From Natronococcus sp. A-GB7 (GTDB lineage Archaea > Halobacteriota > Halobacteria > Halobacteriales > Natrialbaceae), in the NCBI RefSeq assembly GCF_029688865.1, contig NZ_JARUKV010000013.1, forward strand, positions 62,001-126,000: 64,000 nt of DNA, given 5' to 3'. The position numbers were made by a program, and so were the translations under genes. A model generated the notes under the pieces. It saw only the letters and a program-made list of their open reading frames with translations. It did no database searches and was not told where the DNA came from. The number at the start of each line of letters is the position of its first letter. The stretch's first letter is position 1. Shown in pieces: positions 9,503-55,135 of the stretch.

Positions 9503-11295
9503 TGTGTGGCATCATCGGATACGCGGGTGGACAGGCGGACCGGAACGTCGTCGAGGTGCTCTCGAGCGGACTCTCGAAGCTGGAGTACCGCGGCTACGAT
9601 TCGGCCGGAATCGCGGTCGCTCCGGAGGTGTCGGTCTACAAACGGAAGGGCGAACTCGAGGCCCTCGAGGAGACGCTCCCCGACGGAACCGTCGACGCGC
9701 TGGCGGGAATCGGCCACACTCGCTGGAGCACTCACGGGCCGCCGTCCGACGAGAACGCCCACCCTCACACTGACTGTGAGGGCCGCGTCGCCGTCGTCCA
9801 CAACGGGATCGTCGAGAACTACCGCGAACTTCGCGAGGAACTCGAGGCGGCCGGCCACGTCTTCGACAGCGAGACCGATACCGAGGTCATCCCCCACCTG
9901 ATCGAGACGGCCCTCGAACAGGGTGCCGACGAGGACGCTGCGTTCCGGCAGGCGATCGAGCGCCTCGAAGGGAGCTACGCCGTCGCCGCGGTGTTTCACG
10001 GCCGGGAGGAGGTGTACGCGACGCGCGACCAGTCGCCGCTCGTGCTCGGTATTGACGACGGCTGCGCGCTACTGGCCAGCGACGTTCCGGCCTTCCTCGA
10101 GTACACCGATCAGGTAGTGTACCTCGAGGACGGGCAGTTCGCGACGATCAGACCCAGCGGGATCGAGGTCCGAGACGAGCGAGGGGCGCTCGTCGACGTC
10201 TCGGTCGAAACCGTCGACTGGGATCCCGAGGACGCGGGCAAGAGCGGCTACGACCACTACATGTTGAAGGAGATCTACGAACAGCCCCGGTCGATCCGGG
10301 AGTGTCTCCGCGGACGGCTCCGACCGCTCGAGGGGTCGATCGCGATCGAGGAACTCGACGGCCTGGCGCGGCCGACCGACGTGCAGTTCGTCGCCTGTGG
10401 CACATCTTACCACGCCTCGCTGTACGCCGCGAGACTGTTCCGCGAGCGAGGCGTTCGGGCGACGGCGTTTCTCGCGAGCGAGTACGACGTCGAGCGGCTC
10501 CCGCTCGACGACCGAACGCTGGTCGTCGGCGTCACTCAGAGCGGCGAAACCGCCGACACCCTGCGCGCGCTCCGGACCGCGAGCGGAGTCGGTGCGCAAA
10601 CGCTCGCCGTCACGAACGTCGTCGGCAGCTCGGCCGCACGGGAGGCTGATCACGCGATGTACATCCGCGCGGGACCGGAGATCGGCGTCGCCGCGACGAA
10701 GACGTTTACCTCCCAGCAGGTCGCCCTGGCGACGCTCTCGAGCGCGCTCACCGACGACTGTTCGCGGCAGTTCGTCGAGGCGCTGCGCGAGCTTCCCGAC
10801 GGGATCCAGTCGGTCCTCGATACCTCGAACGCGCGAGCCGTCGCCGAGGAGTACGTCGGCGCCGACGCCTACTTCTTTATCGGCCGGGGGTACGAGGCGC
10901 CCGTCGCCCTCGAGGGCGCCCTGAAGATGAAGGAGATCACGTACGAGCACGCGGAGGGGTTCGCGGCTGGCGAACTCAAACACGGACCGCTCGCGCTCGT
11001 GAGCGAGGCGACGCCGGTGATCGCGCTGGTCAACGGCCGGAAGAACACCGATCGGATGCTCGGCAACGTCACGGAGGTCGAGGCTCGAGGGGCGCCGATC
11101 GTCGCGGTGACGGACGATCCGGATGCGGTCGCGGGCCACGCCGATCACGTCCTTCGGGTCCCCGAGACCCACTGGCGGTTCTACCCGATCCTGGCGAACG
11201 TCCAGTTGCAACTGCTCGCCTACTGGGTCGCCAACCGACTGGGCCGATCGATCGACAGACCGCGCAACCTCGCGAAGAGCGTCACCGTCGAGTGA
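9502..11295 (+). CDS. glmS: Glutamine--fructose-6-phosphate aminotransferase
   Basis: A 597-residue enzyme making glucosamine-6-phosphate from fructose-6-phosphate and glutamine, the entry step to UDP-GlcNAc. MCGIIGY places the catalytic Cys at residue 2 of the glutaminase domain; GIGHTRWSTHG and HNGIVENY are glutaminase motifs. Two SIS domains follow: FVACGTSYHASLYA, VVGVTQSGETADT and then FFIGRGYEAPVALEGALKMKEI. It ends with the family-typical RPRNLAKSVTVE. An open frame continues over 400 codons upstream of this ATG, but that part is an arginine-rich shadow of the glmU-like gene. The stop is followed at once by an 80-bp palindrome (11295-11375). Confidence 0.97.
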   Translation: MCGIIGYAGGQADRNVVEVLSSGLSKLEYRGYDSAGIAVAPEVSVYKRKGELEALEETLPDGTVDALAGIGHTRWSTHGPPSDENAHPHTDCEGRVAVVHNGIVENYRELREELEAAGHVFDSETDTEVIPHLIETALEQGADEDAAFRQAIERLEGSYAVAAVFHGREEVYATRDQSPLVLGIDDGCALLASDVPAFLEYTDQVVYLEDGQFATIRPSGIEVRDERGALVDVSVETVDWDPEDAGKSGYDHYMLKEIYEQPRSIRECLRGRLRPLEGSIAIEELDGLARPTDVQFVACGTSYHASLYAARLFRERGVRATAFLASEYDVERLPLDDRTLVVGVTQSGETADTLRALRTASGVGAQTLAVTNVVGSSAAREADHAMYIRAGPEIGVAATKTFTSQQVALATLSSALTDDCSRQFVEALRELPDGIQSVLDTSNARAVAEEYVGADAYFFIGRGYEAPVALEGALKMKEITYEHAEGFAAGELKHGPLALVSEATPVIALVNGRKNTDRMLGNVTEVEARGAPIVAVTDDPDAVAGHADHVLRVPETHWRFYPILANVQLQLLAYWVANRLGRSIDRPRNLAKSVTVE

Positions 11296-11375
11296 TACGG
11301 TTTGCTGTACCGAGTTGCCGGTGGGACCGCAGGCCGGATCGCGGTCCCTCCGGAACTGGCGTCCAGCAGACAGTA
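11295..11375. repeat. Two-level palindromic element, copy 1
   Basis: The element begins at the glmS stop codon (TGATACGG). The inner arms CCGGTGGGACCGC and GCGGTCCCTCCGG differ by one base from perfect complementarity across a 10-base loop. The outer arms pair TACGGTTTGCTGTAC with CAGCAGACAGTAT. It fills nearly the whole gap between the convergent glmS and PQQ-repeat genes and may serve as a bidirectional terminator. The other copies are at 26179, 42616 and 53039. Confidence 0.75.
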
Positions 11376-11387
11376 TGAGAACTCGAG

Positions 11388-20770: not shown

Positions 20771-20866
20771 ACACCCGTGTCCGCGCCCGACTGTCTTGAA
20801 AGCACGCCATCGAGGATCGACCGGTCTCCGAACGGTTTTACACCCGCCGACGGCTACACGCTACCG

Positions 20867-22660
20867 ATGGAGTTCGCCACGTTCGCCGACCGAGCCGCCG
20901 CGATCGAAGCCGAGCCCGCGGACCTCGAGATCGTCGCCCGCGTCGCGACCCTGCTCGAGGACGCGGCCGACGGGGACGGGGGCCGGACCGTCGAGGTCGT
21001 CGCCCGCTACGTCCAGGGGCGAGTCTTCCCCGCCTGGACCTCGAGAACGCTCGACATCGGACCCAGCGCCTGCTACGAGGCGATCGCCCGTGCGGCCGGG
21101 ACGAACGTCTCCACCGACGACGTCGAGGATCGGCTCGCCGAGGTCGGCGAGATCGGCGACGTGGCCGCGAGCTACGACTTCGGCGGCCAGCGGGGACTGG
21201 GCGCCTTCGGGAACAGCGACAACGCGAACGGAGGCGGCGACCTCACGGTTCTGGAAGTCGACGACACCTTACGCGAGCTCGCGGCCGCCGAGGGAGCAGG
21301 CAGCCAGGACCGCAAGGTCGACCTGCTGTTCGGCCTGTTCAACCGCTGCTCGAGCGACGAAGCTCGGTACCTCGCCCGCCTCGTGCTCTCGGAGATGCGC
21401 ATCGGCGTCGGCGAGGGGACGGTTCGGGACGCGATCGGCGAGGCGTTCGACGTCCCCGTCGAAGCCGTTGCGCGCGCTCTGCAGGTGTCGAACGACTACG
21501 GCGAGGTGGCTCGGGTCGCGCTCGGGGACGGCCGCGAGGGACTCGACGCGATGGAACTCGAGGTCGGCCGACCGGTCCAGGCGATGCTCGCCCAGGCCGG
21601 CACCGTCACGGACGCGCTCGAGGACTGGGACGAGGCAGGGGTAGAGTGGAAGTACGACGGAGCGAGGGTGCAACTCCACCACGATCCGGACGGCGTAGCG
21701 GTCGACGACGCGGATGCGACCGTCGTCGACGATTCCGCGGGCGACACCCGAGTCTTCTCGAGAAACATGGAGGACGTCACCGACGCGCTCCCGGAGGTCG
21801 TCGAGTTCGCCGACGACCACCTCGCCGAACCCGCCATCCTCGACGGCGAGGTCGTCGCGATCGACGACGACGGCTCCCCGCTGCCGTTTCAGGAAGTTCT
21901 CAAGCGCTTCCGTCGCAAACACGACGTCGCGAAGGCCCGCGAGGACGTCGCCGTTCGGCCCGTCTTCTTCGACTGTCTGCACGCCGACGGCGAGGACCTG
22001 CTCGAAGAGCCGCTGACGACTCGCCACGACCGTCTCGAGGCCGTTCTCCGCGAGGAATCCGGACAGGAGCCCGACGAGGTCGAGGGGCTGTCCCTGTTGT
22101 GGCGCACCGACGATCCCGACGAGATCGAACGGATCGATACCGACGCGCTCGAGGCGGGCCACGAGGGGATCATGCTCAAAGACCTCGACTCGACGTACTC
22201 CCCGGGCCGTCGCGGGAAGAACTGGCGAAAGCGCAAACCCGACGTCGAGACGCTGGACTGCGTCGTCACGGGCGCGGAGTGGGGCGAGGGGCGTCGGGCG
22301 ACGTACCTGGGCACGTTCGAGCTGTCGGTGCGAGACGACGACAGTGAGGAACGACGTTCCGCTGGCTCTGCGGTGGAACCGCAGAACCTCGAGACGGTCG
22401 GCAAGGTCGCGACGGGCATCACGGACGAGAAGCTCGCGGAGCTGACGGAACTGCTCGAGCCCCACGTCGCGAGCGAGGACGGCCAGACGGTCGAGCTCGA
22501 GCCCGCGGTCGTCTTCGAGGTCGGCTACGAGGAGATCCAGACCTCGCCGACGTACTCGTCGGGCTACGCCCTGCGGTTCCCGCGATTCGTCGGCGTGCGC
22601 TCGGACAAGGATCCTGAGGACGCAGACAGCGTGGGGCGGCTCGAACGACTCCATGAGTAG
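20867..22660 (+). CDS. lig: ATP-dependent DNA ligase
   Basis: A 597-residue archaeal ligase sealing nicks during replication and repair. It has an N-terminal DNA-binding domain (about 1-220), an adenylation domain with the nucleophile Lys262 in EWKYDGARVQ, then FSRNMEDVTDALPEV, EPAILDGEVVAID, HEGIMLKDLDSTYSPGRRG and the OB-fold lysine motif WRKRKPD, closing with RFPRFVGVRSDKDPEDAD. An open frame extends 30 codons upstream, but MEFATFADRAAAIE is the family-typical start. The insertion around EERRSAGSAVEPQN in the OB domain looks lineage-specific. Confidence 0.96.
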   Translation: MEFATFADRAAAIEAEPADLEIVARVATLLEDAADGDGGRTVEVVARYVQGRVFPAWTSRTLDIGPSACYEAIARAAGTNVSTDDVEDRLAEVGEIGDVAASYDFGGQRGLGAFGNSDNANGGGDLTVLEVDDTLRELAAAEGAGSQDRKVDLLFGLFNRCSSDEARYLARLVLSEMRIGVGEGTVRDAIGEAFDVPVEAVARALQVSNDYGEVARVALGDGREGLDAMELEVGRPVQAMLAQAGTVTDALEDWDEAGVEWKYDGARVQLHHDPDGVAVDDADATVVDDSAGDTRVFSRNMEDVTDALPEVVEFADDHLAEPAILDGEVVAIDDDGSPLPFQEVLKRFRRKHDVAKAREDVAVRPVFFDCLHADGEDLLEEPLTTRHDRLEAVLREESGQEPDEVEGLSLLWRTDDPDEIERIDTDALEAGHEGIMLKDLDSTYSPGRRGKNWRKRKPDVETLDCVVTGAEWGEGRRATYLGTFELSVRDDDSEERRSAGSAVEPQNLETVGKVATGITDEKLAELTELLEPHVASEDGQTVELEPAVVFEVGYEEIQTSPTYSSGYALRFPRFVGVRSDKDPEDADSVGRLERLHE

Positions 22661-23216
22661 GACCGTCAAAAGTCGTCTGCGGTCTCGAGTCTACGCCGAA
22701 TGAGTGGGACGACTGGCAGTCAATTCGGTGTGACACTTCCGGATCGTTATTTCTCGCGAGCCACACGGTACCATCCTGTCTCCTTATCCAATTCGTCCAC
22801 TCACGACTCGTACCGCCCGGTACTCACTCGGCTCTGCTGAAGTCCGCTGTAGATTACAAATAACTGTCTGCGGATACAGAGACTGAATTCAGCAAAAAGT
22901 GGTCTATTCCTCGTTTTTTCGGAGGATCTGGATGAAGTGCCTACCAGGCAAATAAGTTAACAAACACTAACCAGAAGTAGTAAAGTCAACAATATGATAT
23001 TATTGAGATTTATAGCATTTTGAAACAAGACCGAGTGGCCAGTATACTAGGAGAATTGTATTCATAACAATGTCACCCTCCTCTTCATACATACGAACAT
23101 CATCAATCACCTGATAGGAAACAGTTATATTTTGAGGGAATTCACACATTTCTGTCTCTAAAAAGAGATAGATTGTAACCATGGAAAAGAGATTGAGAGG
23201 GGAAGGCGGTAGTATA
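22661..23216. other. AT-rich intergenic region at the left edge of the accessory islet
   Basis: After the ligase gene the composition drops to clearly AT-rich from about 22850. Only short frames without family character occur. An imperfect inverted repeat at 22830-22902 resembles insertion-sequence ends. The tract directly before the asparaginase gene carries the purine-rich GAGGGGAAGGCGG at 23197-23209, a plausible ribosome binding site for the ATG at 23217. Confidence 0.5.
22830..22902. repeat. Possible MITE or insertion-sequence remnant
   Basis: GGCTCTGCTGAAGTCC at one side and, on the opposite strand, TTTGCTGAATTCAGTC at the other form an imperfect inverted repeat about 70 bases apart. 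The perfect core is TGCTGAA/TTCAGCA. Ends of this kind are seen in IS5-like haloarchaeal elements, but no transposase or target duplication is visible here. Confidence 0.3.
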
Positions 23217-24380
23217 ATGCCGAATAGGCGTACATTCTTGCAGTTGACTGGTGCAGCAGCCGGATCCGGATTCATGTTTGCGAGCAGTACAGCAGCGAGC
23301 GACCAGGTAGAGAACGCAGAACTTCCTGACTACGAAGACCGTCCAGAGGTCAGAGTCGTCGGAACCGGTGGAACGATCGCAAGTACCCAAGAGGCGGCCG
23401 AAGATGGCGGCTATTCGCTCGACGAGCAGGCAGAAGCAATCGTCGACGCTGTCCCAGTACTTGACGATTTCGCTGAGATTACCTTCGATCAACCCGTCCA
23501 AAAACCAAGTCCATTTCTCAACGCTGAAGATTTTGTCGAAATTTCGAAGGCGATAATGGACGCCGCGAGAGAGGGAGTTGACGGTATACTTGTCACTCAT
23601 GGGACAGACGCGATCGAAGAGAACGCGTTCTTTCAGGACCTCGTTCTCGATCTTGATATTCCGGTCGTGTTCGTTGGAGCGATGCGTCCGGCGGACGCAA
23701 TAAGCGCTGATGGACCGGCAAACCTCCTCTCAGCCGTTCGCCTCTGCACTCGTGAAGAGTTCCACTTAGCGGACGAACCGAGCGGGGTCTACATGGTGAT
23801 GAACGATACGATCCACGCAGCTCGTGACGTCCGGAAATCGCACACATCGATGGTCGATACGTTCGAATCCGGACCTGCTGGCCCGATCGGCATCCTCACA
23901 GATAGCGAAATCGTCCTGTATCGTGAGCCGGGAAGTTATACCGCAGACCTCTCCTGTGAAAACCTCGATGAGGTACCGAACAAGACCGTTCCAATCGCAG
24001 ACACAGGTGCCGGATACGATCCATTCATCTTCGAGCAGGCAACCGCGGGTGAGTACGATGTGGACGGCATCGTTCTACATACCACTGGCAATGGAGGGGT
24101 GCAGCCACCAATCACAGAGGCACGGGACAAAGCACTCGAGGCAGGTATCCCAGTCACTGCGAGTACTCGCGTCTACTGGGGCCCGATGAGTTCAGGCCCT
24201 ACCCCCGCTGACGAAGAAGGGTCGCTCGTCACGATGGAAGACATACCAGCGTGGAACGCGCGGCTACTGATGATGGTAGCTTTGACAGCTTTGGAAGACG
24301 AGCCCGCTATTGAGGCAGTCCGCCAAGCGGTGTACGAGAGCAAGTACGCGAGCGAAACCGTCAGTCCGTCGGCTCTGTAA
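23217..24380 (+). CDS. Tat-exported L-asparaginase (type II-like)
   Basis: A 387-residue exported enzyme hydrolysing asparagine to aspartate and ammonia. PNRRTFLQLTGAAAGSG is a Tat signal. VGTGGTIAST carries the first catalytic Thr and ILVTHGTDAIEE the second Thr-Asp pair of the asparaginase fold; FVGAMRPADAISADGPANLL and VLHTTGNGG are conserved blocks. Many A/T third positions set it apart from the neighbouring ligase gene, so it may be acquired. The ATG at 23217 is chosen because it puts the Arg pair at residues 4-5 and follows a purine-rich tract. A hairpin terminator candidate follows the stop. Confidence 0.9.
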   Translation: MPNRRTFLQLTGAAAGSGFMFASSTAASDQVENAELPDYEDRPEVRVVGTGGTIASTQEAAEDGGYSLDEQAEAIVDAVPVLDDFAEITFDQPVQKPSPFLNAEDFVEISKAIMDAAREGVDGILVTHGTDAIEENAFFQDLVLDLDIPVVFVGAMRPADAISADGPANLLSAVRLCTREEFHLADEPSGVYMVMNDTIHAARDVRKSHTSMVDTFESGPAGPIGILTDSEIVLYREPGSYTADLSCENLDEVPNKTVPIADTGAGYDPFIFEQATAGEYDVDGIVLHTTGNGGVQPPITEARDKALEAGIPVTASTRVYWGPMSSGPTPADEEGSLVTMEDIPAWNARLLMMVALTALEDEPAIEAVRQAVYESKYASETVSPSAL

Positions 24381-24385
24381 TACGC

Positions 24386-24411
24386 GGTTCGCCGCTCGGT
24401 CGCGGCGAGCC
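24386..24411 (+). terminator. Hairpin after the asparaginase gene
   Basis: GGTTCGCCGC and GCGGCGAGCC form a 10-bp stem with one mismatch across a 6-base loop, starting 5 bases after the TAA stop. There is no T-run, so its role as a terminator or mRNA 3' stabiliser is inferred. Confidence 0.45.
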
Positions 24412-24559
24412 CACTAGAGCACACACCACTGCGAGCAGACCGCGAGGACGACACCTCAGCCGGTGGCAATCCGCTTTCGGGTCCTGCTCAGCCGATTCGG
24501 CAGGACGAGTCCCGGGCTACTCGAGCACATGAGTTGAGCCGGAAACGACGACAGGCGAG

Positions 24560-24712
24560 CTATCCGAAGTTCTCGATCAGCGCCTCGTCGGAATCGCCAC
24601 CAGCGTCGTCGATCGTTTCGGCGACGAACGTGACAAAGTCGTAGAAGCCGAAGGCGTAGAGCTGGCCGCCCTCGAGGTGGGGTCCTCGATTACCTCGTGC
24701 AGCGTCTCGTCG
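24560..24712 (-). pseudogene. Broken copy of the 3' end of the flavoreductase gene
   Basis: About 150 bases align with the 3' end of the intact reductase gene at 26335, with roughly 10 mismatches in the first 115 aligned bases. It includes the codons for DEALIENFG and its own stop TAG. A 2-base insertion (GGTGGGGTCC against GGTGGTCC) near 24680 breaks the frame, and homology fades at about 24712. It keeps the same orientation as the intact gene, which lies about 1.8 kb to the right. Confidence 0.85.
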
Positions 24713-24880
24713 CGTCAGCGATTTCTCGGTCGAGCAACTCGAGCATGCCCCCTAACCGCGTGTTCGTAATTAGAAGCTGATTCAGCGATACGTTGGCTGT
24801 TAGATCGCCTCTATATCTGGATAATTATACTTAAATATTAATGCTATAGTATAAATAGAAAAGTAGTACCAAACTGAGTG

Positions 24881-25786
24881 ATGTCTACCGACAAGCGGAC
24901 ATCTCGGCGACGTACCGTACTTCGAGCAATCGCGGGGTCGGCCTCTCTCGGTGGCGTAGGTGTCGCTACGGGAGAAGACAATCGAGGCCGAGGAAACAGC
25001 CGAGAACACTCGCAAAGCGACCGAAGACGAACGATGGAACTCTCGGGATCGAACTCGTACGAGAACGAATTGACGAACGAGAACAGCGCACCCGGAGAGA
25101 GTTACGAGGAGCTACAGGAAGAGCGCAAACGACGATTCGAGGAGCGAGTCGATTTCGACTTTGGTGCGCTAGCGACTGTCGGAGAAAACGATGATAATCT
25201 GGAGTACGTCGATCACTGGGAACACGATTACGACGTCAATTCGGACCAAACTGGAGCGACTATCGCCGAAACCGACCACGTAATAACGCTTCTAGAGTTG
25301 ATCGACGACTACGGCAATCGAGTGACGGATTACGAGGGACGATACGTCTACGTTTTCGAACACTATTCGAAATCGGAGGGGCAACATAGGTGGTGGCACG
25401 GTGATCCGAAGACAACCCACCTGGATAATCACTTGGACATCAGTAACAGCAATGTTGAACTAACTGACCGGGATCCAAGTACGACACGGACTATCGACGG
25501 CGACTACGCCACTGTTAGCCTCGAAGGAAGCGCCAGATCGGTCGGATTCTCCCTTTCCTATCCTGTGTACGTAGATAACGGTCAAATCGGCCCTGGGAAA
25601 TATTCACCAGGTAGCGCCGGAGAGTACTCGGTCAGGTTCTCCGGGTGTAGCGAAAGAGACGTCACCGACACCATCGGTTATTCCGAACTTCGAAGTTCGG
25701 TGGTCATTCCGGACCTCGAGAGCGGAATCGGCCTCAGTTGGTCGACGGAAGCCAAGGCACAAACGACCAATTCAGGTCCCTGCTGA
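24881..25786 (+). CDS. Tat-exported protein of unknown function
   Basis: A 301-residue protein beginning with a Tat signal (SRRRTVLRAIAGSASLGGVG), then a hydrophilic, charged stretch (about 30-90) and a domain rich in aromatic and Asp/Ser residues (EHYSKSEGQHRWWHGDP around 165-180) ending TNSGPC. It has no family I recognise. A GTG directly precedes the ATG; the ATG is taken as start. Mixed third positions and an AT-rich upstream tract suggest acquired DNA. Confidence 0.7.
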   Translation: MSTDKRTSRRRTVLRAIAGSASLGGVGVATGEDNRGRGNSREHSQSDRRRTMELSGSNSYENELTNENSAPGESYEELQEERKRRFEERVDFDFGALATVGENDDNLEYVDHWEHDYDVNSDQTGATIAETDHVITLLELIDDYGNRVTDYEGRYVYVFEHYSKSEGQHRWWHGDPKTTHLDNHLDISNSNVELTDRDPSTTRTIDGDYATVSLEGSARSVGFSLSYPVYVDNGQIGPGKYSPGSAGEYSVRFSGCSERDVTDTIGYSELRSSVVIPDLESGIGLSWSTEAKAQTTNSGPC

Positions 25787-25934
25787 CTTCCCCGAAATAG
25801 TAGCGAGTGCCCTCCGTTCGATGACGATGACCTCAAAGAAATCTTATATTCATAGATATAGATATATTAAATAACCACGCTAAAATGAATGTAAATGGAA
25901 TGTCGATAGAACTGCAGCAATAACAAATGAAATT

Positions 25935-26180
25935 ATGGCACGAACAGGGACAAACACACGCGAACTGTTGGGAGAAAGCATCGAAATGTTCAAATTGTTG
26001 GCAGCTTGGTCAGCTATTGCCGTCGTTCCGCTGGCCTACTACGCGTTCGTCGATTCGGACAGCGTAATCGGTCTCGGCTCTCGATACGTCGGGTACTTCG
26101 TGCTCGTTCTCGGCGGCGCCAACGTGTTGCTGTACGTGATCGCAAGAGGTATCTCCCTCGCACGGACCGACCGCGTCTGA
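25935..26180 (+). CDS. Small two-helix membrane protein
   Basis: An 81-residue protein with two hydrophobic segments (about 20-40, LLAAWSAIAVVPLAYYAFV, and 50-70, YVGYFVLVLGGANVLLYVI) and a short basic tail. No family recognised. An AT-rich promoter tract lies just upstream (25840-25930). Its stop is followed directly by a palindromic element (26179-26265). Confidence 0.6.
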   Translation: MARTGTNTRELLGESIEMFKLLAAWSAIAVVPLAYYAFVDSDSVIGLGSRYVGYFVLVLGGANVLLYVIARGISLARTDRV

Positions 26181-26265
26181 GACAGATCGCTGTACCGATG
26201 TTCCGGCACAACCGCCGCCCCGGGTCGCGGGCGCGCCGGAAACGACAGAATCCAGTAAACCGTCC
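26179..26265. repeat. Two-level palindromic element, copy 2 (degenerate)
   Basis: It abuts the stop of the small membrane protein. The inner arms CCGGCACAACCGC (26203-26215) and GCGGGCGCGCCGG (26227-26239) pair imperfectly, and the outer arms run from GACAGATCGCTGTAC to CCAGTAAACCGTC. It is the most decayed of the four copies and lies between convergent genes. Confidence 0.6.
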
Positions 26266-26334
26266 GAGGGGTTCTCGTCGACAGCGCTGACGAATCTGAT
26301 CGAGCGAAAACGACGGAACCGGATTCGAGAGGAC

Positions 26335-27003
26335 TCAGCCGAAGTTCTCAATCAGCGCCTCGTCGGAATCGCCGCCGGCCTCGTCGATCGTCTCGGCGAC
26401 GAACGCGACGAAGTCGTGGAAGCCGAAGGCGTAGAGCTGGCCGTCCTCGAGGTGGTCCTCGATCGCCTCGCGCAGGCTCTCCTCGTCGTCCTCGTCGACG
26501 AAGACGACCGTCGCGCCGGCATCCTCGAGGGCCTCGAGGCGGTCGACGTGGGCCGGTTCGTCGTCCTGGTAGACGACGACGGCGTCGTGGCCCGCGTCGT
26601 GAGCGGCCTCGGCGATCGAGACCGCGGGACCGACACCGGGGCCGCCCGCGACGGCGACGATATCCCGGTCCTGTTCGTAGGTGATCTCGCCGAACGGGCC
26701 CTCGACGTGGACGACCGCGCCCGGTTCGAGGTCGGCGAGCCACGGCGAGAGGTCGCCGTCGGGATCGACGCCGACGGTGAGTTCGAACGTGTCCTCGACC
26801 GAGGACGACGAGAGCGTGTAGTGGCGCGCGACGACGTCGTCCTCGTCGTGATCGGCCTGCTGGTCGTCGGCTCCCGGCACGGCCCGGAGCAACACGAACT
26901 GTCCCGGAAGCGCGTCGAACCCGTCGGGTGTCTCGAGTTCGAGCGCGACGGTTTCGGGGCCGACCTCGCGTACGGCGTCGACGGCGACTGGCGTCCCTTC
27001 CAT
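26335..27003 (-). CDS. Flavin-dependent ferredoxin/NAD(P)H reductase-like protein
   Basis: A 222-residue protein of the ferredoxin-NADP reductase superfamily. It has an FAD-binding beta-barrel (GQFVLLRAVPG, then the R-x-Y-T/S motif in ARHYTLSSSS) and a nucleotide-binding domain (VAVAGGPGVGPAVSIAEAA, VVVYQDDEPAHVDRLEALED). It ends SDEALIENFG. No iron-sulfur domain is attached. The ATG at 27003 is chosen because it precedes the barrel directly. It is divergent from korAB across 148 bases, so it may pass electrons between KorAB-reduced ferredoxin and NAD(P). A broken copy of its 3' end lies at 24560. Confidence 0.85.
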   Translation of the reverse strand: MEGTPVAVDAVREVGPETVALELETPDGFDALPGQFVLLRAVPGADDQQADHDEDDVVARHYTLSSSSVEDTFELTVGVDPDGDLSPWLADLEPGAVVHVEGPFGEITYEQDRDIVAVAGGPGVGPAVSIAEAAHDAGHDAVVVYQDDEPAHVDRLEALEDAGATVVFVDEDDEESLREAIEDHLEDGQLYAFGFHDFVAFVAETIDEAGGDSDEALIENFG

Positions 27004-27151
27004 GTTCGATAAGTTCGGGAGGAGCGTGAAAAGCGGTTCCGTTCCGTCCAGGCCGAACGGAGCCGACTTGCGGATATACTCACGCTCGAGTAAGCCTCTA
27101 TGAGGGCTTTCAGAAGCCTTTTCATTTACTGGGAGCAAGGTTCTGCATAAC

Positions 27152-28909
27152 ATGGCAGCGGACCTCAACTGGGCGATCGGAGGCGAGGCTGGCGACGGCA
27201 TCGACTCCACCGGCAAAATCTTCGCTCAAGCACTCTCGCGTGCCGGGCGACACGTATTCACCTCGAAGGACTTCGCGTCTCGGATCCGTGGCGGTTACAC
27301 GGCCTACAAGATTCGAACGTCTGTCGACGAGGTCCAGAGCGTCGTCGACCGACTCGACATCCTCGTCGCGCTTACACAGCGAACGATCGACGAGAATCTC
27401 GACGAACTCCACGACGGCAGCGCGATCATCTACGACGGCGAACGCTCCTGGGACGCCGAGATCCCCGAGGAGATGAAGGGGATCGACGTCCCGCTGAAGT
27501 CGCTGGCCGAGGACGCCGGCGGCGCGATCATGCGTAACATCGTCGCGCTCGGGGCCGCCTGCGAGATCACCGGCTTCGACGTCGAGTACCTCGACGAATC
27601 CCTCGAGAAGCGCTTCGGTGGGAAGGGGACCCAGATCGTCGAGAACAACAAGGAGGCCGCCCGCCTGGGCCAGGAGTACGTCCAGGAGCACTACGACGTC
27701 GGCGACCTCGGCTACGACATGGAGACCACCGACAACGACTACGTCCTGCTCAACGGCAACGAGGCGATCGGTATGGGTGCGATCGCCGCCGGCTGTCGCT
27801 TTTATGCGGGCTACCCGATCACGCCCGCGACCTCGATCATGGAGTATCTAACGGGCCGAATCGAGGAGTACGGCGGCCACGTCGTCCAGGCCGAGGACGA
27901 GCTCTCGGCGATCAACATGACGCTGGGTGCCGCCCGATCGGGCGCCCGCTCGATGACGGCGACCTCGGGTGCCGGAATCGACCTCATGACCGAGACGTTC
28001 GGCCTGGTCGCGACCAGCGAGACGCCGATGGTCATCTGCGACGTCATGCGCTCGGGTCCCTCGACGGGGATGCCGACCAAACAGGAGCAGGGCGATCTGA
28101 ACATGGCCCTGTACGGCGGCCACGGCGAGATTCCGCGGTTCGTCGTCGCGCCGACCTCGATCACCGAGTGTTTCTGGAAGACCATCGAGGCGTTCAACCT
28201 GGCCGAGAAGTACAACACGCCGGTCTTCCTCGTCTCCGACCTGGCGATGTCGGTGACCGAGCAGACGTTCCCGCCGGAAGCGTTCGACATGGACGCCGTC
28301 GAGATCGACCGCGGCAAGCTCGTCGACGACGAGGAAGTTCAGGAGTGGCTCGACAGCCAGGGTCGGTTCCGCGCCCACGCCGCGACCGAGGACGGCGTCA
28401 GCCCGCGTTCCATCCCCGGCACGACCGACGGCGCACACATGAGCACGGGGCTCGAGCACGACGAACTCGGTCGCCGGACCGAGGAACAGGAGATCCGCGT
28501 CCAGCAGGTCGACAAGCGAAACCGAAAGGTCGAGACCGCCAAAAACGAGGAGGAGTGGGAGTACCGCGAGTTCGGCAACCCCGATGCGGAGAACCTCGTC
28601 ATCTCCTGGGGATCGAACGAGGGTGCGCTGGTCGAAGCCCTCGAGTACCTCGAGGACGAAGGTGTCGACGTCCGCGTGATCTCGGTGCCCTACATCTTCC
28701 CGCGACCCGACCTCACAGACGAGATCGAGGCCGCCGAGGAGACGATCGTCGTCGAGTGTAACGCGACGGGCCAGTTCGCAGACGTGATCGAACACGACGT
28801 CCTCACCCGCGTGAAACGCATCAACAAGTACACCGGCGTCCGCTTCAAGGCGGACGAGCTGGCCGAAGAGATTACGACCAAACTCACCGAGGAGGTGCCC
28901 GCACAATGA
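27152..28909 (+). CDS. korA: 2-oxoacid:ferredoxin oxidoreductase, alpha (gamma-alpha fused) subunit
   Basis: A 585-residue subunit of the CoA-dependent enzyme that oxidatively decarboxylates 2-oxoglutarate or pyruvate and reduces ferredoxin. The gamma domain comes first (about 1-190, GGEAGDGIDSTGKIFAQAL, SRIRGGYTAYKIRTS), then the alpha/pyrimidine domain (ICDVMRSGPSTGMPTKQEQGD around residues 290-315) and the C-terminal transketolase-like domain. A TATA-like TTTTCATTTAC lies about 27 nt before the ATG. Its stop overlaps korB by ATGA. KorA is preferred but PorA (pyruvate) cannot be excluded by eye. Confidence 0.88.
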   Translation: MAADLNWAIGGEAGDGIDSTGKIFAQALSRAGRHVFTSKDFASRIRGGYTAYKIRTSVDEVQSVVDRLDILVALTQRTIDENLDELHDGSAIIYDGERSWDAEIPEEMKGIDVPLKSLAEDAGGAIMRNIVALGAACEITGFDVEYLDESLEKRFGGKGTQIVENNKEAARLGQEYVQEHYDVGDLGYDMETTDNDYVLLNGNEAIGMGAIAAGCRFYAGYPITPATSIMEYLTGRIEEYGGHVVQAEDELSAINMTLGAARSGARSMTATSGAGIDLMTETFGLVATSETPMVICDVMRSGPSTGMPTKQEQGDLNMALYGGHGEIPRFVVAPTSITECFWKTIEAFNLAEKYNTPVFLVSDLAMSVTEQTFPPEAFDMDAVEIDRGKLVDDEEVQEWLDSQGRFRAHAATEDGVSPRSIPGTTDGAHMSTGLEHDELGRRTEEQEIRVQQVDKRNRKVETAKNEEEWEYREFGNPDAENLVISWGSNEGALVEALEYLEDEGVDVRVISVPYIFPRPDLTDEIEAAEETIVVECNATGQFADVIEHDVLTRVKRINKYTGVRFKADELAEEITTKLTEEVPAQ

Positions 28910-38839: not shown

Positions 38840-39058
38840 AACACGTTCCTTTACGACCGTCCATAAAACCTTTTCGAGGATTGAAGCTAGCCAACTATAT
38901 ATTCCTAAAGGGTGACGACTAGGCTCGAAACTAGGTTACTAGGCTGGAAAACGAAATCCTCGTATCGAGGTCGACACGGCCGACGAGACGACGATCCTGA
39001 AACGGATCCCGCTCGTCTGTGGGGAGGACTGAAGCCCGCTGACATCGAACGAACCGGC

Positions 39059-39886
39059 GTGACCGACAGCCACACTATCGACGCCGGGAACGCGGCGATT
39101 CCGGCGCTCGGATTCGGGACGGCACGGATGACCGGTGACGAGTGTCGACGGGCGGTCGCGGCCGCTCTCGAGGCCGGCTACCGCCACCTCGACACCGCCC
39201 AGATGTACGACAACGAGGACGCGGTCGGCGACGCGCTCGCGGCGAGCGACGTGGCCCGCGAGGACGTCTTCGTCGTGACCAAGGTCGATACGGACAACCT
39301 CGCTCGCGATGCCGTCCTCGAGTCGACCCGTCGGAGTCTCGAGCGACTGGGTGTCGAGACGATCGATCTCCTCCTGATCCACGCGCCCCGCGACCACACG
39401 CCCCTCGAGGAGACGCTCGGCGCGATGAACGAACTGCAAGAGGAGGGGCAGGTCGACCATATCGGCGTCAGCAACTTCTCGGTCGCACAGCTCGAGCGCG
39501 CTCGGGAGCTGTCGACGACGCCGATCGTCGCCAACCAGGTGAAGTACCACCCCTACTACCGCCAGGACGAACTGCTCTCGTACTGCGTCGACAACGACGT
39601 CTGCCTGACCGCCTACAGCCCGCTGGCGGAGGGGGCCGTCGTCGGCGACGACCGCCTGGCGAAGATCGGCGAGCGGTACGACAAGTCGGCCTCCCAGGTC
39701 GCGCTTCGGTGGCTCGTCCAGCAGCCCGCCGTGGCGGCGATCCCGAAGGCCTCGAGTCGCGACCACCTCGAGGCGAACGCCGCCATCTTCGACTTCGAAC
39801 TCTCGAGCGAGGAGATGCGGACGGTGTTCGAGCTGACGGATCCGCGTCTCACCGCGAGAATCGCGTCCAAGCTCGGCTTCGACTGA
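39059..39886 (+). CDS. Aldo/keto reductase
   Basis: A 275-residue NAD(P)H-dependent reductase paralogous to the one at 17639. The tetrad residues are in YRHLDTAQMYDNEDAVG (Asp, Tyr), VVTKVDTDNL (Lys) and LLLIHAPRDH (His). HIGVSNFSVAQL and AIPKASS are family signatures. The GTG at 39059 is chosen because upstream in-frame codons, open to 38912, read as an Arg-rich tail unlike the family. A TATA-like CTATATATT at 38895-38903 would then leave a leader of well over 100 bases. Confidence 0.88.
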   Translation: MTDSHTIDAGNAAIPALGFGTARMTGDECRRAVAAALEAGYRHLDTAQMYDNEDAVGDALAASDVAREDVFVVTKVDTDNLARDAVLESTRRSLERLGVETIDLLLIHAPRDHTPLEETLGAMNELQEEGQVDHIGVSNFSVAQLERARELSTTPIVANQVKYHPYYRQDELLSYCVDNDVCLTAYSPLAEGAVVGDDRLAKIGERYDKSASQVALRWLVQQPAVAAIPKASSRDHLEANAAIFDFELSSEEMRTVFELTDPRLTARIASKLGFD

Positions 39887-39898
39887 GGTTCGTGCAAG

Positions 39899-39907
39899 AA
39901 CTTATCC
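39899..39907 (+). promoter_or_regulatory. TATA box of the PAS histidine kinase gene
   Basis: AACTTATCC lies about 25-32 nt before the ATG at 39931, the expected place for a leaderless haloarchaeal promoter. It sits 13 bases after the aldo/keto reductase stop. Confidence 0.5.
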
Positions 39908-39930
39908 GCCTCACTCGTCACTGAACGCAT

Positions 39931-42615
39931 ATGTGCGACGGTGTGGGGGCACCTGACGAGGCGGATCGAGAGCGCGCAGTCGGAGGAGTCTCGCCGGAGC
40001 AGTATCGAACGGTAATGAATGCGGTCGATGACGGTATCTACCAGCTCGACGCCGACAACCGGTTCGTCGCGGTCAACGACGCGGCCCTCGAGCGGACGGG
40101 GTACGATCGCGAGGAGCTGCTCGGCGAGCACGTCTCGGTCCTCCTCGACGACGAGGACGCCGCCCGCCTCGAGCGGGAGCTCCGCGAACGGCTCGAGATC
40201 GGCGAGGACGCCGAGGCGACGTTCGATCTCGCGATCGAGACCGCCGACGGTGACAGCCTCCCCAGCGAGGCGCGGTTTAGCGTCCTCGAGGCCGACGGCG
40301 AGTTCGACGGCGTCGTCGCCGTCGTTCGGGACGTCGGCGAGGATCCCGAACGCGACCGATCGGAGTTGATCTGGGAGACGAACGAGTCGATTACCTCGGT
40401 CATCGACGAGGCCGACGTCGGGGTGTTCGTCCTCGACGAGTCGTTCGACGTCGTCTGGGCCGACGAGACCGTGGAGACGTACTTCGGCGTGGATCGCGAC
40501 GAGATCATCGGCCGGGACAAACGGACCGTCATCGAGGAGACGATCCGCGACCGCCTCGCCGATCCGGAGGTGTTCGCGGAGACCGTGCTGGCGACCTACG
40601 ACGACAACACGTCCGTCGAGCAGTTCGAGTGTCGGATCGCGGACGGTCCCGACCGGGAGGAACGCTGGCTCGAGCACCGAAGCAAGCCGATCGAGTCCGG
40701 GCGGTACGCCGGCGGCCGCGTCGAGCTGTACTACGACATCACCGACCGAAAGGAGTCACAGCTGGCGCGCCGCGAGAGCGAGCGGCGCTTCGAGTCGCTG
40801 GTCGACGCGGTCGACGAGTACGCCATCTTCATGCTCGATCCCGACGGACGGGTGCAGAGCTGGAACGAGGGGGCGAAACGGATCAAGGGGTACGATCCGT
40901 CGGAGATCCGTGACGAGCACTTCTCGACGTTCTACACCGAGTCCGATCGAGCGGCCGACGTTCCCGCGCGGAACTTGGAACGGGCCGACGCGGAAGGGAC
41001 CGTCGAGAACGAGGGCTGGCGCGTCCGCGCGGACGGCTCGCGGTTCTGGGCGAACGTGACGCTTACGGCGATCAGGGAGGACGGCGAACTCCAGGGGTAC
41101 GCGAAGGTCACCCGCGACATGACCGAACGCCGGGAGCGCGAACAACAGCTGCAACGGGAGCGCGACCTGGTCGAACGGATCCTCGAGACGAGCCCCGTCG
41201 GCATCGCGGTCGTCAACGCCGACGGGTCGACCAACCGGGCGAACGAACGGATGGCGACCCTGCTCGGCGTCCCGCCGGACGAGTCCTCGGGGTACGCCGC
41301 AGGCCGTCTGGACATGTACGACGCCGAGGGGCGGCTGCTCCCGGTCGAGGATCGACCGGCAGGTCGGGTCTTCGAGACGGGCGAGCCCGTCTACGACCGA
41401 GATATCCGTCTGGATCGGCCCGACGGAACGCGGACGTGGCTGTCGATAAACGCCACACCGATCGGCACCGAGGGGGAGACTCCCGAGCAGGTCGTCGTCA
41501 CTGCAACCGACATCACCGACCTGAAGGAGCTGGTCGAGCGACGCAAACGGGAACTCGAGGAACGCGAGAAGGAGATCGCAGGGGTCCGGCTCGCGACGAA
41601 CCTGCTCGAGACCGGCGACCGACCGGTCGAGGAGCTGCTCGAGGAGTTCGTCTCGGAGCTCCCCCAGTCGTTCCGGTACCCGGACCGAACCGCGGCCCAC
41701 GTCTCCGTCGGCGATCACGAGGCGGCCACCGACGCCTGCGACACCTTCGAGCGCCAGATCACTGCCCGTACCAGCACGGCCAGCGGGACGCCGATCCGGA
41801 TCGACGTCGGCTTCGTGGAACCGCCGCCCGAACGCGAGCCCGACCCGTTCGTCGACGAGGAGCGGGAGCTGATCGACACGCTCGCGACGCTGATGACGTT
41901 TCACTTCGAGCGCCAGGAGTACATCGACGAGCTTCGGGCGGAGACCAGACGCCTGGAGCAGTTCGCCTACGCGGCCTCTCACGACCTCCAGGAGCCGCTG
42001 CGGATGGTCTCGAGCTACCTCCAGCTCGTCGAGCGACGGTACGCCGACGAGCTCGACGATGACGGCCGAGAGTTCCTCGCCTTTGCCCTCGAGGGAGCCG
42101 AACGGATGCGCAACATGATCGACGGGCTGCTCGCCTACGCCCGGGTCAAGACGCGAGGCGAACCGCTCGAACCGGTGGATCTCGACGCCGTCTTCGAGGA
42201 TGCCCGCTCGGATCTCAAGATGCGAATCTCAGCGACGGACGCCGACATCACCGTAGACCCTCTGCCGACGGTCGAGGGCGACGAGAGTCAGCTCCGACAG
42301 GTGTTCCAGAACCTGCTGGACAACGCGATCGAGTACAGCGACGGCCCACCCCGGATCCACGTCTCGGCCGAGCGACGCGACTCGGTGTGGGAGATCTCGG
42401 TACGCGACGAGGGGATCGGGATACCGGCCGACGAGCGCGACCAGATCTTCGAGATGTTCCAGCGCCTGCACGGCCGCGGCGCCCACGACGGCACCGGGAT
42501 CGGGCTCGCGCTCTGCGAACGGATCGTCGAGCGCCACGGCGGGGAGATCCGCGTCGACTCCGAGCTCGGCGAGGGGTCGACGTTCTCGGTTACGCTTCCG
42601 GCCGTCGACGACTGA
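39931..42615 (+). CDS. Multi-PAS sensor histidine kinase
   Basis: An 894-residue cytoplasmic sensor with no membrane segment. Four PAS/PAC units lie at about 24-140, 155-275, 285-405 and 410-545 (for example YQLDADNRFVAVNDAALERT and FMLDPDGRVQSWNEGAKRIK). A coiled stretch and a GAF-like segment follow (about 545-665). The HisKA phospho-acceptor is His684 in AASHDLQEPLRMVSSYLQ, followed by an HATPase domain with the N box NLLDNAIEYS, G1 DEGIGIP and G2 GTGIGLAL. It probably senses redox, light or a small ligand. No response regulator gene is adjacent, so its partner must be elsewhere. A palindromic element abuts its stop. Confidence 0.95.
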   Translation: MCDGVGAPDEADRERAVGGVSPEQYRTVMNAVDDGIYQLDADNRFVAVNDAALERTGYDREELLGEHVSVLLDDEDAARLERELRERLEIGEDAEATFDLAIETADGDSLPSEARFSVLEADGEFDGVVAVVRDVGEDPERDRSELIWETNESITSVIDEADVGVFVLDESFDVVWADETVETYFGVDRDEIIGRDKRTVIEETIRDRLADPEVFAETVLATYDDNTSVEQFECRIADGPDREERWLEHRSKPIESGRYAGGRVELYYDITDRKESQLARRESERRFESLVDAVDEYAIFMLDPDGRVQSWNEGAKRIKGYDPSEIRDEHFSTFYTESDRAADVPARNLERADAEGTVENEGWRVRADGSRFWANVTLTAIREDGELQGYAKVTRDMTERREREQQLQRERDLVERILETSPVGIAVVNADGSTNRANERMATLLGVPPDESSGYAAGRLDMYDAEGRLLPVEDRPAGRVFETGEPVYDRDIRLDRPDGTRTWLSINATPIGTEGETPEQVVVTATDITDLKELVERRKRELEEREKEIAGVRLATNLLETGDRPVEELLEEFVSELPQSFRYPDRTAAHVSVGDHEAATDACDTFERQITARTSTASGTPIRIDVGFVEPPPEREPDPFVDEERELIDTLATLMTFHFERQEYIDELRAETRRLEQFAYAASHDLQEPLRMVSSYLQLVERRYADELDDDGREFLAFALEGAERMRNMIDGLLAYARVKTRGEPLEPVDLDAVFEDARSDLKMRISATDADITVDPLPTVEGDESQLRQVFQNLLDNAIEYSDGPPRIHVSAERRDSVWEISVRDEGIGIPADERDQIFEMFQRLHGRGAHDGTGIGLALCERIVERHGGEIRVDSELGEGSTFSVTLPAVDD

Positions 42616-42695
42616 TGCGGATCGCTGGAGCGGTTTACCGGCGCAACCGCCGCTCGGGTCGCGGTTGCGCCGGAAACGGCGTACAGTAGACCGTA
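42616..42695. repeat. Two-level palindromic element, copy 3
   Basis: The inner arms are perfect: CCGGCGCAACCGC (42638-42650) and GCGGTTGCGCCGG (42661-42673) across a 10-base loop. The outer arms run from TGCGGATCGCTGGAGCGGTTT to the complement of GGCGTACAGTAGACCGTA. It directly follows the kinase stop and precedes the epimerase gene by about 57 bases. This is the only copy between two genes of the same direction. Confidence 0.8.
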
Positions 42696-42752
42696 CGAAA
42701 TCGTCGCCGGAAGGACAACACTCAGGCCCCGCGGGCTCGAATCCGTCTTCCG

Positions 42753-52954: not shown

Positions 52955-53038
52955 AGCGACCGTTCCGAACGGTGAACCCGCCTCGAGGACCTGCAACTGT
53001 CCGATCGGGGACGACCGGAGCGCGTCGACGGCCCTCTC

Positions 53039-53120
53039 ATACGGACTACTGTAGGTCATTTCCGGAGCGACCGCGAGCCCTCCTGCGGTCGCCCCGGTAC
53101 ATCGGTACAGCAGACCGTAT
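53039..53120. repeat. Two-level palindromic element, copy 4
   Basis: The outer arms ATACGGACTACTGTA and TACAGCAGACCGTAT pair at 13 of 15 positions. The inner arms CCGGAGCGACCGC and GCGGTCGCCCCGG pair with one mismatch across a 10-base loop. The right end touches the stop codon of the leftward ATPase gene; osmC converges from the left. It is the best example of the full element in this window. Confidence 0.8.
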
Positions 53121-55135
53121 CAGCCGTCGAACCGGAGCAGCCGCAACCCGATCAGGCTGACCAGCACGGTCGAACCCTCGTGACCGACCACGGCGACCGG
53201 CAACGGGATCCCAGCCGTGAGGATCGCCACGATCATGATCGCGATCGCGCCGAACGCGATGGCGAAGTTGATATACAGCGTTCGGCGCGTCTCCTTGCTG
53301 AGCGCGAACGCGTACGGCAACCGATCGAGCCTGTCCGACATGAGCACGATGTCGGCCGTCTCGAGGGCGACGTCGGTTCCCGCACCACCCATTCCGATGC
53401 TGATGTCGGCCGTCGCGAGCGCAGGCGCGTCGTTGACCCCGTCGCCGACCATCGCAACGGCCTCGTGGCGCTCCTGGAGCGCCTCGATGTGGTCGACTTT
53501 CTCCTCGGGAAGCAGCTCCGCGTACACCTCGTCGATCCCGAGCTCCTCGGCGATGTAGTTGGCGACCCGTTCGTTGTCGCCCGTGAGCATGACGATCCGC
53601 TCGACGCCGCGCTCGCGGAGCCGTTCGATGGTCTCGGCCGCGTCGGCCCGGATCGTATCGCTAAAGCCGAGCCAGCCGAGGACGCGGAGCCGCTCGTCGG
53701 TTTCCTCGACGACGAGGACGCTCGTCTTCCCGTCGGCTTCCAGTCGGCGAACGGCCTCGAGACTGTCCTCGAGACCTGCGATCGATCGTCCCTCGAGTTC
53801 GGTCCGAACGTACCGGGGATTGCCGATATGGAGCGTTCGCTCCTCGACGGTCGCGTGGACACCCTTGCCGACGACCGCCTCGAACCCGGTCGCCGCGGGG
53901 ATCTCGAGGCCCCGCTGTTCGGCGGCGTCGACGGTCGCCTCGGCCAGGTGGTGTTCGGACCGCGACTGGACGGCGGCCGCAAGCGCCAACAGTCCGTCCT
54001 CGGGGTCCCCGTCGAAACCGCTCGCGGCCGCCACAACGTCGCTCGAGCCGCCGTCGGTAGCAGCGCTCCCTCGAGCGCTCACGTCGGTCAGCCGAGTGTT
54101 GCCCTCGGTCAGGGTCCCGGTCTTGTCGAAGGCGACGGCGTCGACGTTCCCCGCCGTCTCGATGTGTTCGCCGCCCTTGAACAGGACGCCCTGTCGGCCG
54201 CCGGCGGAGATCGCTGAGAGCACTGCCGCCGGCGTCGAGATAATGACCGCACAGGGCGAGGCCGCGACCATGAGCGTCATCGCGCGGTAGAACGTCGAAT
54301 CGAACGGCTGGTCGAGGATCACGATCGGGAGTGCGATCGCGACTGCGGTCAGTGCGAGGACGCTCATCACGTAGGGCTGCTCGAAGCGGTCGATGAGCTG
54401 CTGGGTCGGCGCTCGCTTCTCCTGGGCCTGCTCGACCATGTTGATAAGTCTAGAGATCGCCGACTCCTGGGCCTCGCGGGTGACTCGCACCTCGAGACTG
54501 CCAGTCTCGTTGATCGTCCCGCTGAACACCTCGTCGCCGGGTGCTTTCGTCACCGGCACCGACTCGCCGGTGAGCGAGGACTGGTCGACCGTGCTCTCGC
54601 CGGACTCGACGACGCCGTCCAGCGGCAGCCGATCGCCGGGGCGGACGACGAACACGTCGCCGACCTCGACGTCGTCGATCGGCGTCGTCACTTCCCTCCC
54701 GTCGTTGAGGATCCGGGCCGACTCCGGGCGCATCTCGATGAGCGACCTGATCGCGGTTCGGGAGCGGCCGATCGCGTACTCCTCTAAGACTCCCGACAGC
54801 GAGAACAGAAACAGCAACATCGCTCCCTCGAAGGGTGCGCGGATAAACAGCGCCCCGAGCGCCGCGAGGATCATCAGGAGATCGATCTCCACTGCGGGTT
54901 CCCGGATGGCCTTGACGCTCTCCTTGAGCCCGTACCAGCCGCCGAAGACGTAGGCGACCGCGTAGCTGCCCCACACGAACGACTCGGGAGCGCCGAGCCA
55001 GCCGCCGAGCAGCCCGCTCATCATCCCGAAAAAGGTAAGCACGACGAACGCTGCCTGCCGCCGGACGACCGGTCGGTCCGTCGGTACCGTCGACCGGTCG
55101 GACGCGGTCGAAACCGCGTTCGAGGACGTCTCCAT
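53120..55135 (-). CDS. P1B-4-type heavy-metal ATPase
   Basis: A 671-residue membrane pump exporting transition metals. The metal-site motif SPC is at residues 293-295 (VAASPCAVIIS), the phosphorylated Asp337 in DKTGTLT, the ATP-binding HP-like EHHLAEA, the hinge GDGVNDAPAL, and the C-terminal His-Glu motif HEGST at about 652-656. SPC plus HEGxT and the lack of an N-terminal metal-binding domain mark subgroup P1B-4 (Co, Zn, Cd or Fe). The ATG at 55135 is preferred because a more upstream start would overlap the TATA-like AATAAGTATT. Confidence 0.92.
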   Translation of the reverse strand: METSSNAVSTASDRSTVPTDRPVVRRQAAFVVLTFFGMMSGLLGGWLGAPESFVWGSYAVAYVFGGWYGLKESVKAIREPAVEIDLLMILAALGALFIRAPFEGAMLLFLFSLSGVLEEYAIGRSRTAIRSLIEMRPESARILNDGREVTTPIDDVEVGDVFVVRPGDRLPLDGVVESGESTVDQSSLTGESVPVTKAPGDEVFSGTINETGSLEVRVTREAQESAISRLINMVEQAQEKRAPTQQLIDRFEQPYVMSVLALTAVAIALPIVILDQPFDSTFYRAMTLMVAASPCAVIISTPAAVLSAISAGGRQGVLFKGGEHIETAGNVDAVAFDKTGTLTEGNTRLTDVSARGSAATDGGSSDVVAAASGFDGDPEDGLLALAAAVQSRSEHHLAEATVDAAEQRGLEIPAATGFEAVVGKGVHATVEERTLHIGNPRYVRTELEGRSIAGLEDSLEAVRRLEADGKTSVLVVEETDERLRVLGWLGFSDTIRADAAETIERLRERGVERIVMLTGDNERVANYIAEELGIDEVYAELLPEEKVDHIEALQERHEAVAMVGDGVNDAPALATADISIGMGGAGTDVALETADIVLMSDRLDRLPYAFALSKETRRTLYINFAIAFGAIAIMIVAILTAGIPLPVAVVGHEGSTVLVSLIGLRLLRFDG

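Follow-up and report, generated by a model that had tools for sequence, protein, structure and literature searches.

How did the 3′ end of one reductase gene come to lie twice on the same DNA, once as part of an intact gene and once as a broken piece, with two uncharacterised genes between the copies? The question is posed by a stretch of 64,000 nucleotides from the haloarchaeon Natronococcus sp. A-GB7 (GCF_029688865.1, contig NZ_JARUKV010000013.1, positions 62,001 to 126,000), in the following referred to as the window. An earlier note based on the letters of the DNA had offered two answers, namely that a second reductase gene was destroyed by an insertion of foreign DNA, or that the genes in between arrived by recombination through the reductase 3′ end. 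The gene order in related genomes favours the second answer in a more specific form, according to which the locus probably arose when two of its versions were spliced within the tail of the reductase gene, the broken piece being the old 3′ end left beside the asparaginase gene.

The duplicated 3′ end and the genes between the copies

The features of the locus are arranged in the order lig, asparaginase gene, reductase fragment, aldo-keto reductase (AKR) piece, genes for a 302-aa and an 81-aa protein, palindromic element and reductase gene, followed by korA and korB, both on the + strand:

20777–22660, +, ATP-dependent DNA ligase gene lig (Pfam DNA_ligase_A_N/M/C), left frame of the variable site
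23181–24380, +, asparaginase gene aspA (Pfam Asparaginase, 5.5e-50; 92.7% amino acid identity in G007)
24563–24716, −, frameshifted 3′-end fragment of the reductase gene, stop codon included, that is collinear with the asparaginase-reductase junction of G007
24712–24750, +, 39-nt piece of an AKR gene, joined to the fragment
24878–25786, +, gene for a 302-aa protein, cargo, no match in Pfam, NCBIfam or PHROGs
25935–26180, +, gene for an 81-aa protein, cargo, with a 60% homologue adjoining the 302-aa homologue in G001
26177–26263, +, dispersed GC-rich palindromic element of ca. 85 nt at the stop codon of the 81-aa gene
26267–26312, +, tentatively, what may be left of the C-terminal end of an HTH regulator gene
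26335–27003, −, intact FAD/NAD-binding reductase gene (Pfam FAD_binding_6, 4.8e-08), adjoining korAB

A repeat search in the window aligned positions 24564–24680 with 26339–26455 without gaps over 117 nt at 92% identity and a spacing of 1,775 nt, and the match extends to 24712 when gaps are allowed (149 nt, 88.6%, E 9e-45). Positions 24563–24712 thus correspond to the last ca. 150 nt of an FAD/NAD-type reductase gene in the same orientation as the intact copy. The fragment ends in frame with the stop codon TAG, that of the intact gene being TGA, and its 39 codons counted from the stop share 90% protein identity with the intact reductase; beyond these codons the frame is disrupted by a 2-nt insertion. 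The broken same-orientation duplicate described before is hereby confirmed, and so is its bracketing of two uncharacterised genes, as the 302-aa and 81-aa genes lie between the repeats and neither protein matches a family in the three collections. The intact gene is complete and its product presumably unaffected; the open-frame list places its start at a TTG at 27216, while the alignments of its relatives begin at the ATG at 27003.

Within the last 120 nt, fragment and intact gene differ at 12 positions, eight of them third codon positions, and the changed codons comprise seven silent and four non-silent ones. Third positions likewise account for 8/10 differences from G007 and for 10/12 from G004, two relatives of the same genus. 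Because of this concentration, most of the differences probably date from a time when the sequence still encoded protein. The fragment as such reads as a relic without function.

Among 125 genomes of the family, the 302-aa protein has matches in 12, its own genome included, and a close gene only in its own genome and in G001 (66%), where the copy resides elsewhere in the genome. The N-terminus of the protein appears twin-arginine-like, and the 81-aa protein is probably a small membrane protein, both as judged by eye. In G001, the gene of an HTH regulator and the homologues of the 302-aa and 81-aa genes form one cluster (G001:C15, L090, 5262–7494) away from the reductase, adjoining genes that by eye resemble guaA and carA; its HTH protein is 32% identical to that of G070, a genome of another genus. 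In the window, the stretch 26267–26312 attains a local score of 39 against the HTH protein of G070, a value reached by 14 of 2,997 controls, and its part 26267–26305 matches the HTH DNA at 74% (E 0.04), while a longer DNA alignment placed the stretch differently, outside the HTH gene. We therefore only tentatively assign it to an HTH remnant. Queries of the viral, plasmid and phage collections with the 302-aa protein, and a pattern-based scan of GTDB genome contigs, yielded no relative, a weak negative since the scan also missed the 66% homologue of G001 present in that collection, and records very close to the window may be absent from the collections searched.

In 500-nt windows, the GC content amounts to 48–55% over the two cargo genes and to 59–71% to their right. 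On the left the low-GC islet is not sharply delimited, because the asparaginase stretch itself has a GC content of only 48–62%. An AT-rich stretch (22750–23250, 42% GC), part of which is missing from G007, is found ahead of the asparaginase gene, whose product carries a signal-like N-terminus as judged by eye. The recommended look for an integrase gave no recognisable candidate in the islet, both genes of which lack any family match, no tRNA was found in the window, and the region 22600–27200 gave no match to RNA families up to E 1.

The palindromic element at the end of the 81-aa gene recurs in the window at 11293–11379, 42612–42698 and 53036–53123. In the own genome 27 matches correspond to 23 distinct copies, because a palindrome can match on both strands, and all six other genomes tried contain it with 18 to 86 matches each; these counts include both strands and are based on scoring at most 40 of 28 to 320 first candidates per genome, and are thus not copy numbers. 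From the six genomes, 29 loci were read, selected as the best matches to a consensus with TGA at both ends. Their left triplet is TGA in 25 and TCA in four, and the same triplet is present on the right in 28/29, the pattern expected from a 3-nt target duplication. A stop codon that closes at least 100 open codons forms the left triplet in 14/29 loci, compared to 17% of 1,235 control TGAs, and all four TCA copies represent a stop after at least 100 open codons on the other strand. In the own genome a stop codon is found at the left of 18/23 copies, 16 of them after at least 100 open codons. Matching triplets are weak there (7/23; shuffled mean 4.6; 46/2,000 shuffles as high) and clear only in the best-matching copies of the six other genomes. 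Flanked by TNA triplets, the palindrome resembles a MITE that regenerates the stop codon through its target duplication. Among the titles and opening lines of abstracts on haloarchaeal palindromes, no report recognisable as this element was encountered, and such an abundant palindrome, often at stop codons, may deserve a study of its own.

Gene order around the reductase in related genomes

A search with positions 24500–28500 of the window in 61 genomes, the own genome included, gave matches in 59 and revealed the reductase-korA block to be widespread; among the matches listed, the part 24500–26160 adjoins the reductase only in the own genome. Nine genomes of the genus were compared on the basis of 35 scored candidate places per genome. 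G001, G003, G004, G006, G007 and G008 each yielded a single place of the reductase type, the window alone yielded two, and G002 and G005 offered only a 33-nt match. The latter two genomes are also those of the nine without a good match to reductase-korAB (best E 1e-16 and 8e-18 over a short part). The duplicate fragment is present in none of the eight other genomes of the genus. A search for a second 3′ end of each genome's own reductase gene covered the window and 44 other loci, which stand for at most 39 other genomes, at least five being included twice; among these 45 stretches, only the window has such an end (at least 100 nt at 75% identity or more), the longest matches elsewhere reaching 157 nt (62%) and 149 nt (63%).

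These data bear on the idea that a second, paralogous reductase gene occupied the site until the islet inserted into it and destroyed it. Such an event is in keeping with a truncated gene end next to DNA of low GC content. However, neither the eight other genomes of the genus nor the 44 other stretches contain a second copy, and the flank of the fragment is that of the reductase gene itself in G007, in the place of which the fragment is found. We consider a destroyed paralogue very improbable, and the first answer of the earlier note finds no support. Site-specific integration of a small element that carried a copy of the reductase 3′ end, rebuilt the gene upon insertion and later lost its integrase would explain a direct repeat of a gene 3′ end with its stop codon, cargo in between and the intact gene on one side. 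The predominance of third-position differences and the presence of an 81-aa gene remnant close to the reductase of G070 (see below) are compatible with this process as well. However, there is neither a recognisable integrase between the repeats nor a tRNA in the window, no second reductase 3′ end recurs in the 44 other stretches, and the 302-aa protein has no relative in the viral, plasmid and phage collections, which leaves this route with little likelihood.

The gene order itself was compared in 24 loci besides the window, that of G070 being included owing to its match to the 81-aa gene. The 3′ ends of lig and of the reductase gene point towards each other, and in G004, G006 and G007 lig precedes either the reductase or the asparaginase gene. 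In G004 the two ends are only ca. 50 nt apart, a nearly empty site and thus one of the two arrangements that the earlier note had named as telling in relatives, and G007 has lig, asparaginase and reductase genes in one stretch uninterrupted by the islet. In G006 ca. 950 nt of other sequence separate lig and reductase. The gap between the two genes (22661–26334 in the window) consequently has a different content in each of these four close relatives, the window's being asparaginase gene plus islet. An ancient, vertically inherited order with both fragment and cargo, which the earlier note had named as refuting its reading, was not observed among the relatives.

An AKR gene of the type found at 38912 in the window is located on the + strand left of the reductase in 14 of the 24 loci, in 12 of them within 4.6 kb and in two at 10–11 kb. 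It was not seen in the compared stretch of the other ten, three of which are lig-type loci. These lig-type loci possess the 38912-type AKR gene and a histidine kinase gene right of korAB, and a different AKR gene on the − strand 4–7 kb to the left. The window, G004, G006 and G007 thus have the AKR and kinase genes (38912–42615 in the window) on the far side of korAB, to its right, and G001 and G003 have them left of the reductase; G008 has the AKR gene left of the reductase, the kinase gene not being seen in its stretch. Judged from these arrangements, the relocation of the AKR/kinase pair seems to mark the lig-type clade.

In G070 an AKR gene (+), a remnant of the 81-aa gene (+), an HTH gene (+) and the reductase gene (−) follow each other in the order and orientation found in the window from 24712 to 27003. 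What remains of the 81-aa gene is its C-terminal part, with 82.6% identity over 132 nt. The agreement is partial, as no 302-aa gene turned up in the stretch of G070 and the HTH remnant of the window is tentative. G025, which belongs to the genus of G070, has the AKR gene there, and no 81-aa remnant.

Two proposed versions of the locus and the join between them

Positions 23039–24716 of the window align to G007 in a single alignment of 1,684 nt at 86.5% identity, which runs through the gap between asparaginase and reductase genes into the reductase tail. The homology to G007 ends at 24712–24716, where the 39-nt AKR piece begins, and the overlap at the join is at most 5 nt. Positions 26311–27008 then align a second time to the same G007 reductase. 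Since both blocks match one gene, the window contains the reductase 3′ end twice, once with the neighbour it has in G007 and once with other neighbours, the right block partly matching the version of G070 (AKR, 81-aa gene, reductase).

The AKR piece, which reads VSDFSVEQLEHA against VSNFSVEQLERA and corresponds to the region of the conserved VSNFS motif, comprises only 39 nt singled out after a search, with a best ungapped score against eight AKR genes of 31, a value reached by none of 1,439 control stretches (highest 24). In five of the eight genes the best match terminates at the identical base of the piece. Of its 39 nt, 35 are identical in G001, G004 and G007, 34 in G003 and G006, 33 in G008, 31 in the AKR gene of the window itself at 38912, 29 in G070 and 27 in G025. 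On the basis of these identities the piece is assigned to the Natronococcus type; its fit is equally good to an AKR gene on the right (G004, G007) and to one on the left (G001). An assembly chimera of two strains might be suspected in a draft of 77 contigs with a contamination estimate of 3.52%. However, the join is located at non-homologous sequence, and both of its sides have decayed, as seen from the AKR rest of 39 nt and the frameshift, which a misjoin does not produce; the probability of such an artefact is close to negligible.

Consistent with these data, we propose the following scenario. Version 1 of the locus would correspond to G007 with the order lig-asparaginase-reductase, and version 2 would have had the order AKR-302-81-(HTH)-reductase-korAB, with the AKR gene on the left as in the 14 loci and the 81-aa gene and HTH regulator as in G070. 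No genome with a complete version 2 was found, the only close 302-aa genes among 125 genomes of the family being those of the own genome and of G001; we infer this version as a whole, like the molecular path, while the collinearity on the left, the join, the agreement of order on the right, the empty site and the lack of the fragment in relatives are observed directly. The product of the joining would follow version 1 until ca. 150 nt inside the reductase 3′ end and then continue with the inside of the AKR gene, the cargo and the complete reductase gene. A simple replacement does not yield the window, because the order fragment-then-AKR is the reverse of the order AKR-then-reductase in version 2. 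Two paths might overcome this difficulty. Either version 2 was closed to a circle between AKR and reductase, and a single homologous crossover with the reductase tail of version 1 brought it in, or a linear fragment of version 2 recombined homologously at its reductase end while its AKR end was joined illegitimately. Later, in a presumed order of events, the frameshift would have arisen in the fragment, the AKR piece would have shrunk and the palindromic element would have inserted where the 81-aa gene terminates, at its stop codon. To the left, the limit of the version 1 block was not located, the second half of lig being nearly equidistant to G004 and G007.

The main alternative is a tandem duplication in one genome, either from inside an AKR gene to inside the reductase gene or of a whole reductase-to-AKR segment, after which one copy was largely deleted or replaced. 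It would account for the reductase/AKR join with its order and orientation and would require no second lineage for the reductase ends. An AKR gene in matching orientation is indeed present to the right at 38912, and G004 and G007 also have a right-hand AKR gene that matches the piece as well as that of G001 (35/39); duplication and deletion within version 1, where the AKR gene is situated ca. 12 kb to the right, would yield the same join. In a tree of 153 columns the fragment groups with the lig-type clade (support 83/92); a sister grouping of fragment and intact gene was not found, but is not rejected (p-AU 0.13). However, states private to the intact gene are absent from the fragment, which over 151 aligned columns is no closer to the intact gene (87.4%) than to G007 (88.7%), the values for G004 and G001 both being 86.8%. 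Moreover, a duplication alone does not account for an 81-aa gene in the vicinity of the reductase outside the genus. Based on this analysis we regard tandem duplication as rather unlikely and favour the joining of two locus versions, because part of the cargo adjoins the reductase in another genus too. The relatives' gene order thereby supports the earlier suggestion that the cargo was brought in by recombination at the reductase 3′ end.

The intact reductase gene itself displays a change of affinity at 26458/26463, its last ca. 120 nt differing from the rest. Of the sites informative between G004 and G007, 3/12 are G004-like from 26335 up to 26458 and 62/72 in 26463–27003 (Fisher 3.7e-5; 3/5,000 permutations as extreme). 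However, the change is not polarised, because four of the nine G007-type sites in 26335–26458 are changes private to G004 among six genomes, and G004 rather than the lineage of the window may be the recombinant. An interpretation of the switch as a crossover in the lineage of the window was downgraded for this reason; as read from the site patterns, the change points to recombination in one lineage, whichever it was. In the korA stretch 27641–28000 the sites are mixed as well (18 G004-like, 23 G007-like), so that exchange seems common in this region.

Comparison with known routes of gene exchange

Single-crossover integration, known as Campbell-type or insertion-duplication integration, leaves behind an intact hybrid gene and a truncated copy as direct repeats around the insert. 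The window shares the intact gene and the truncated copy flanking an insert as direct repeats. It differs in that no circle, plasmid gene or origin is seen in it, the circle being hypothetical. Other elements, such as e14 in the icd gene of Escherichia coli, integrate into the 3′ end of a protein gene and rebuild it. As in e14/icd, the cargo is bordered by a gene 3′ end that was displaced and differs mostly at silent positions; unlike there, the window has no recognisable integrase, and the duplicated end does not recur in the relatives examined.

In homology-facilitated illegitimate recombination, one end of incoming DNA is anchored by homology and the other is joined illegitimately (PMC3240628). 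The locus described here is similar in that the reductase side is homologous, and the join at 24712–24716 has no more than 5 overlapping nt. The difference is that the systems treated in that source are competent bacteria and E. coli conjugation, while here an old event in an archaeon is deduced from sequence alone.

One might further imagine the reductase 3′ end as a standing exchange platform in the family, at which the 302-81-HTH module, the asparaginase gene and others would be swapped among lineages by circles or fragments carrying a reductase 3′ end and needing no integrase, each swap renewing the tail; we consider such a generalisation quite unlikely. The mechanism is of a known kind and calls for no new system. 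The locus provides an example of how archaeal gene order changes between the facing ends of lig and reductase, a readable yet ordinary trace of gene exchange in which the broken tail would record one swap.
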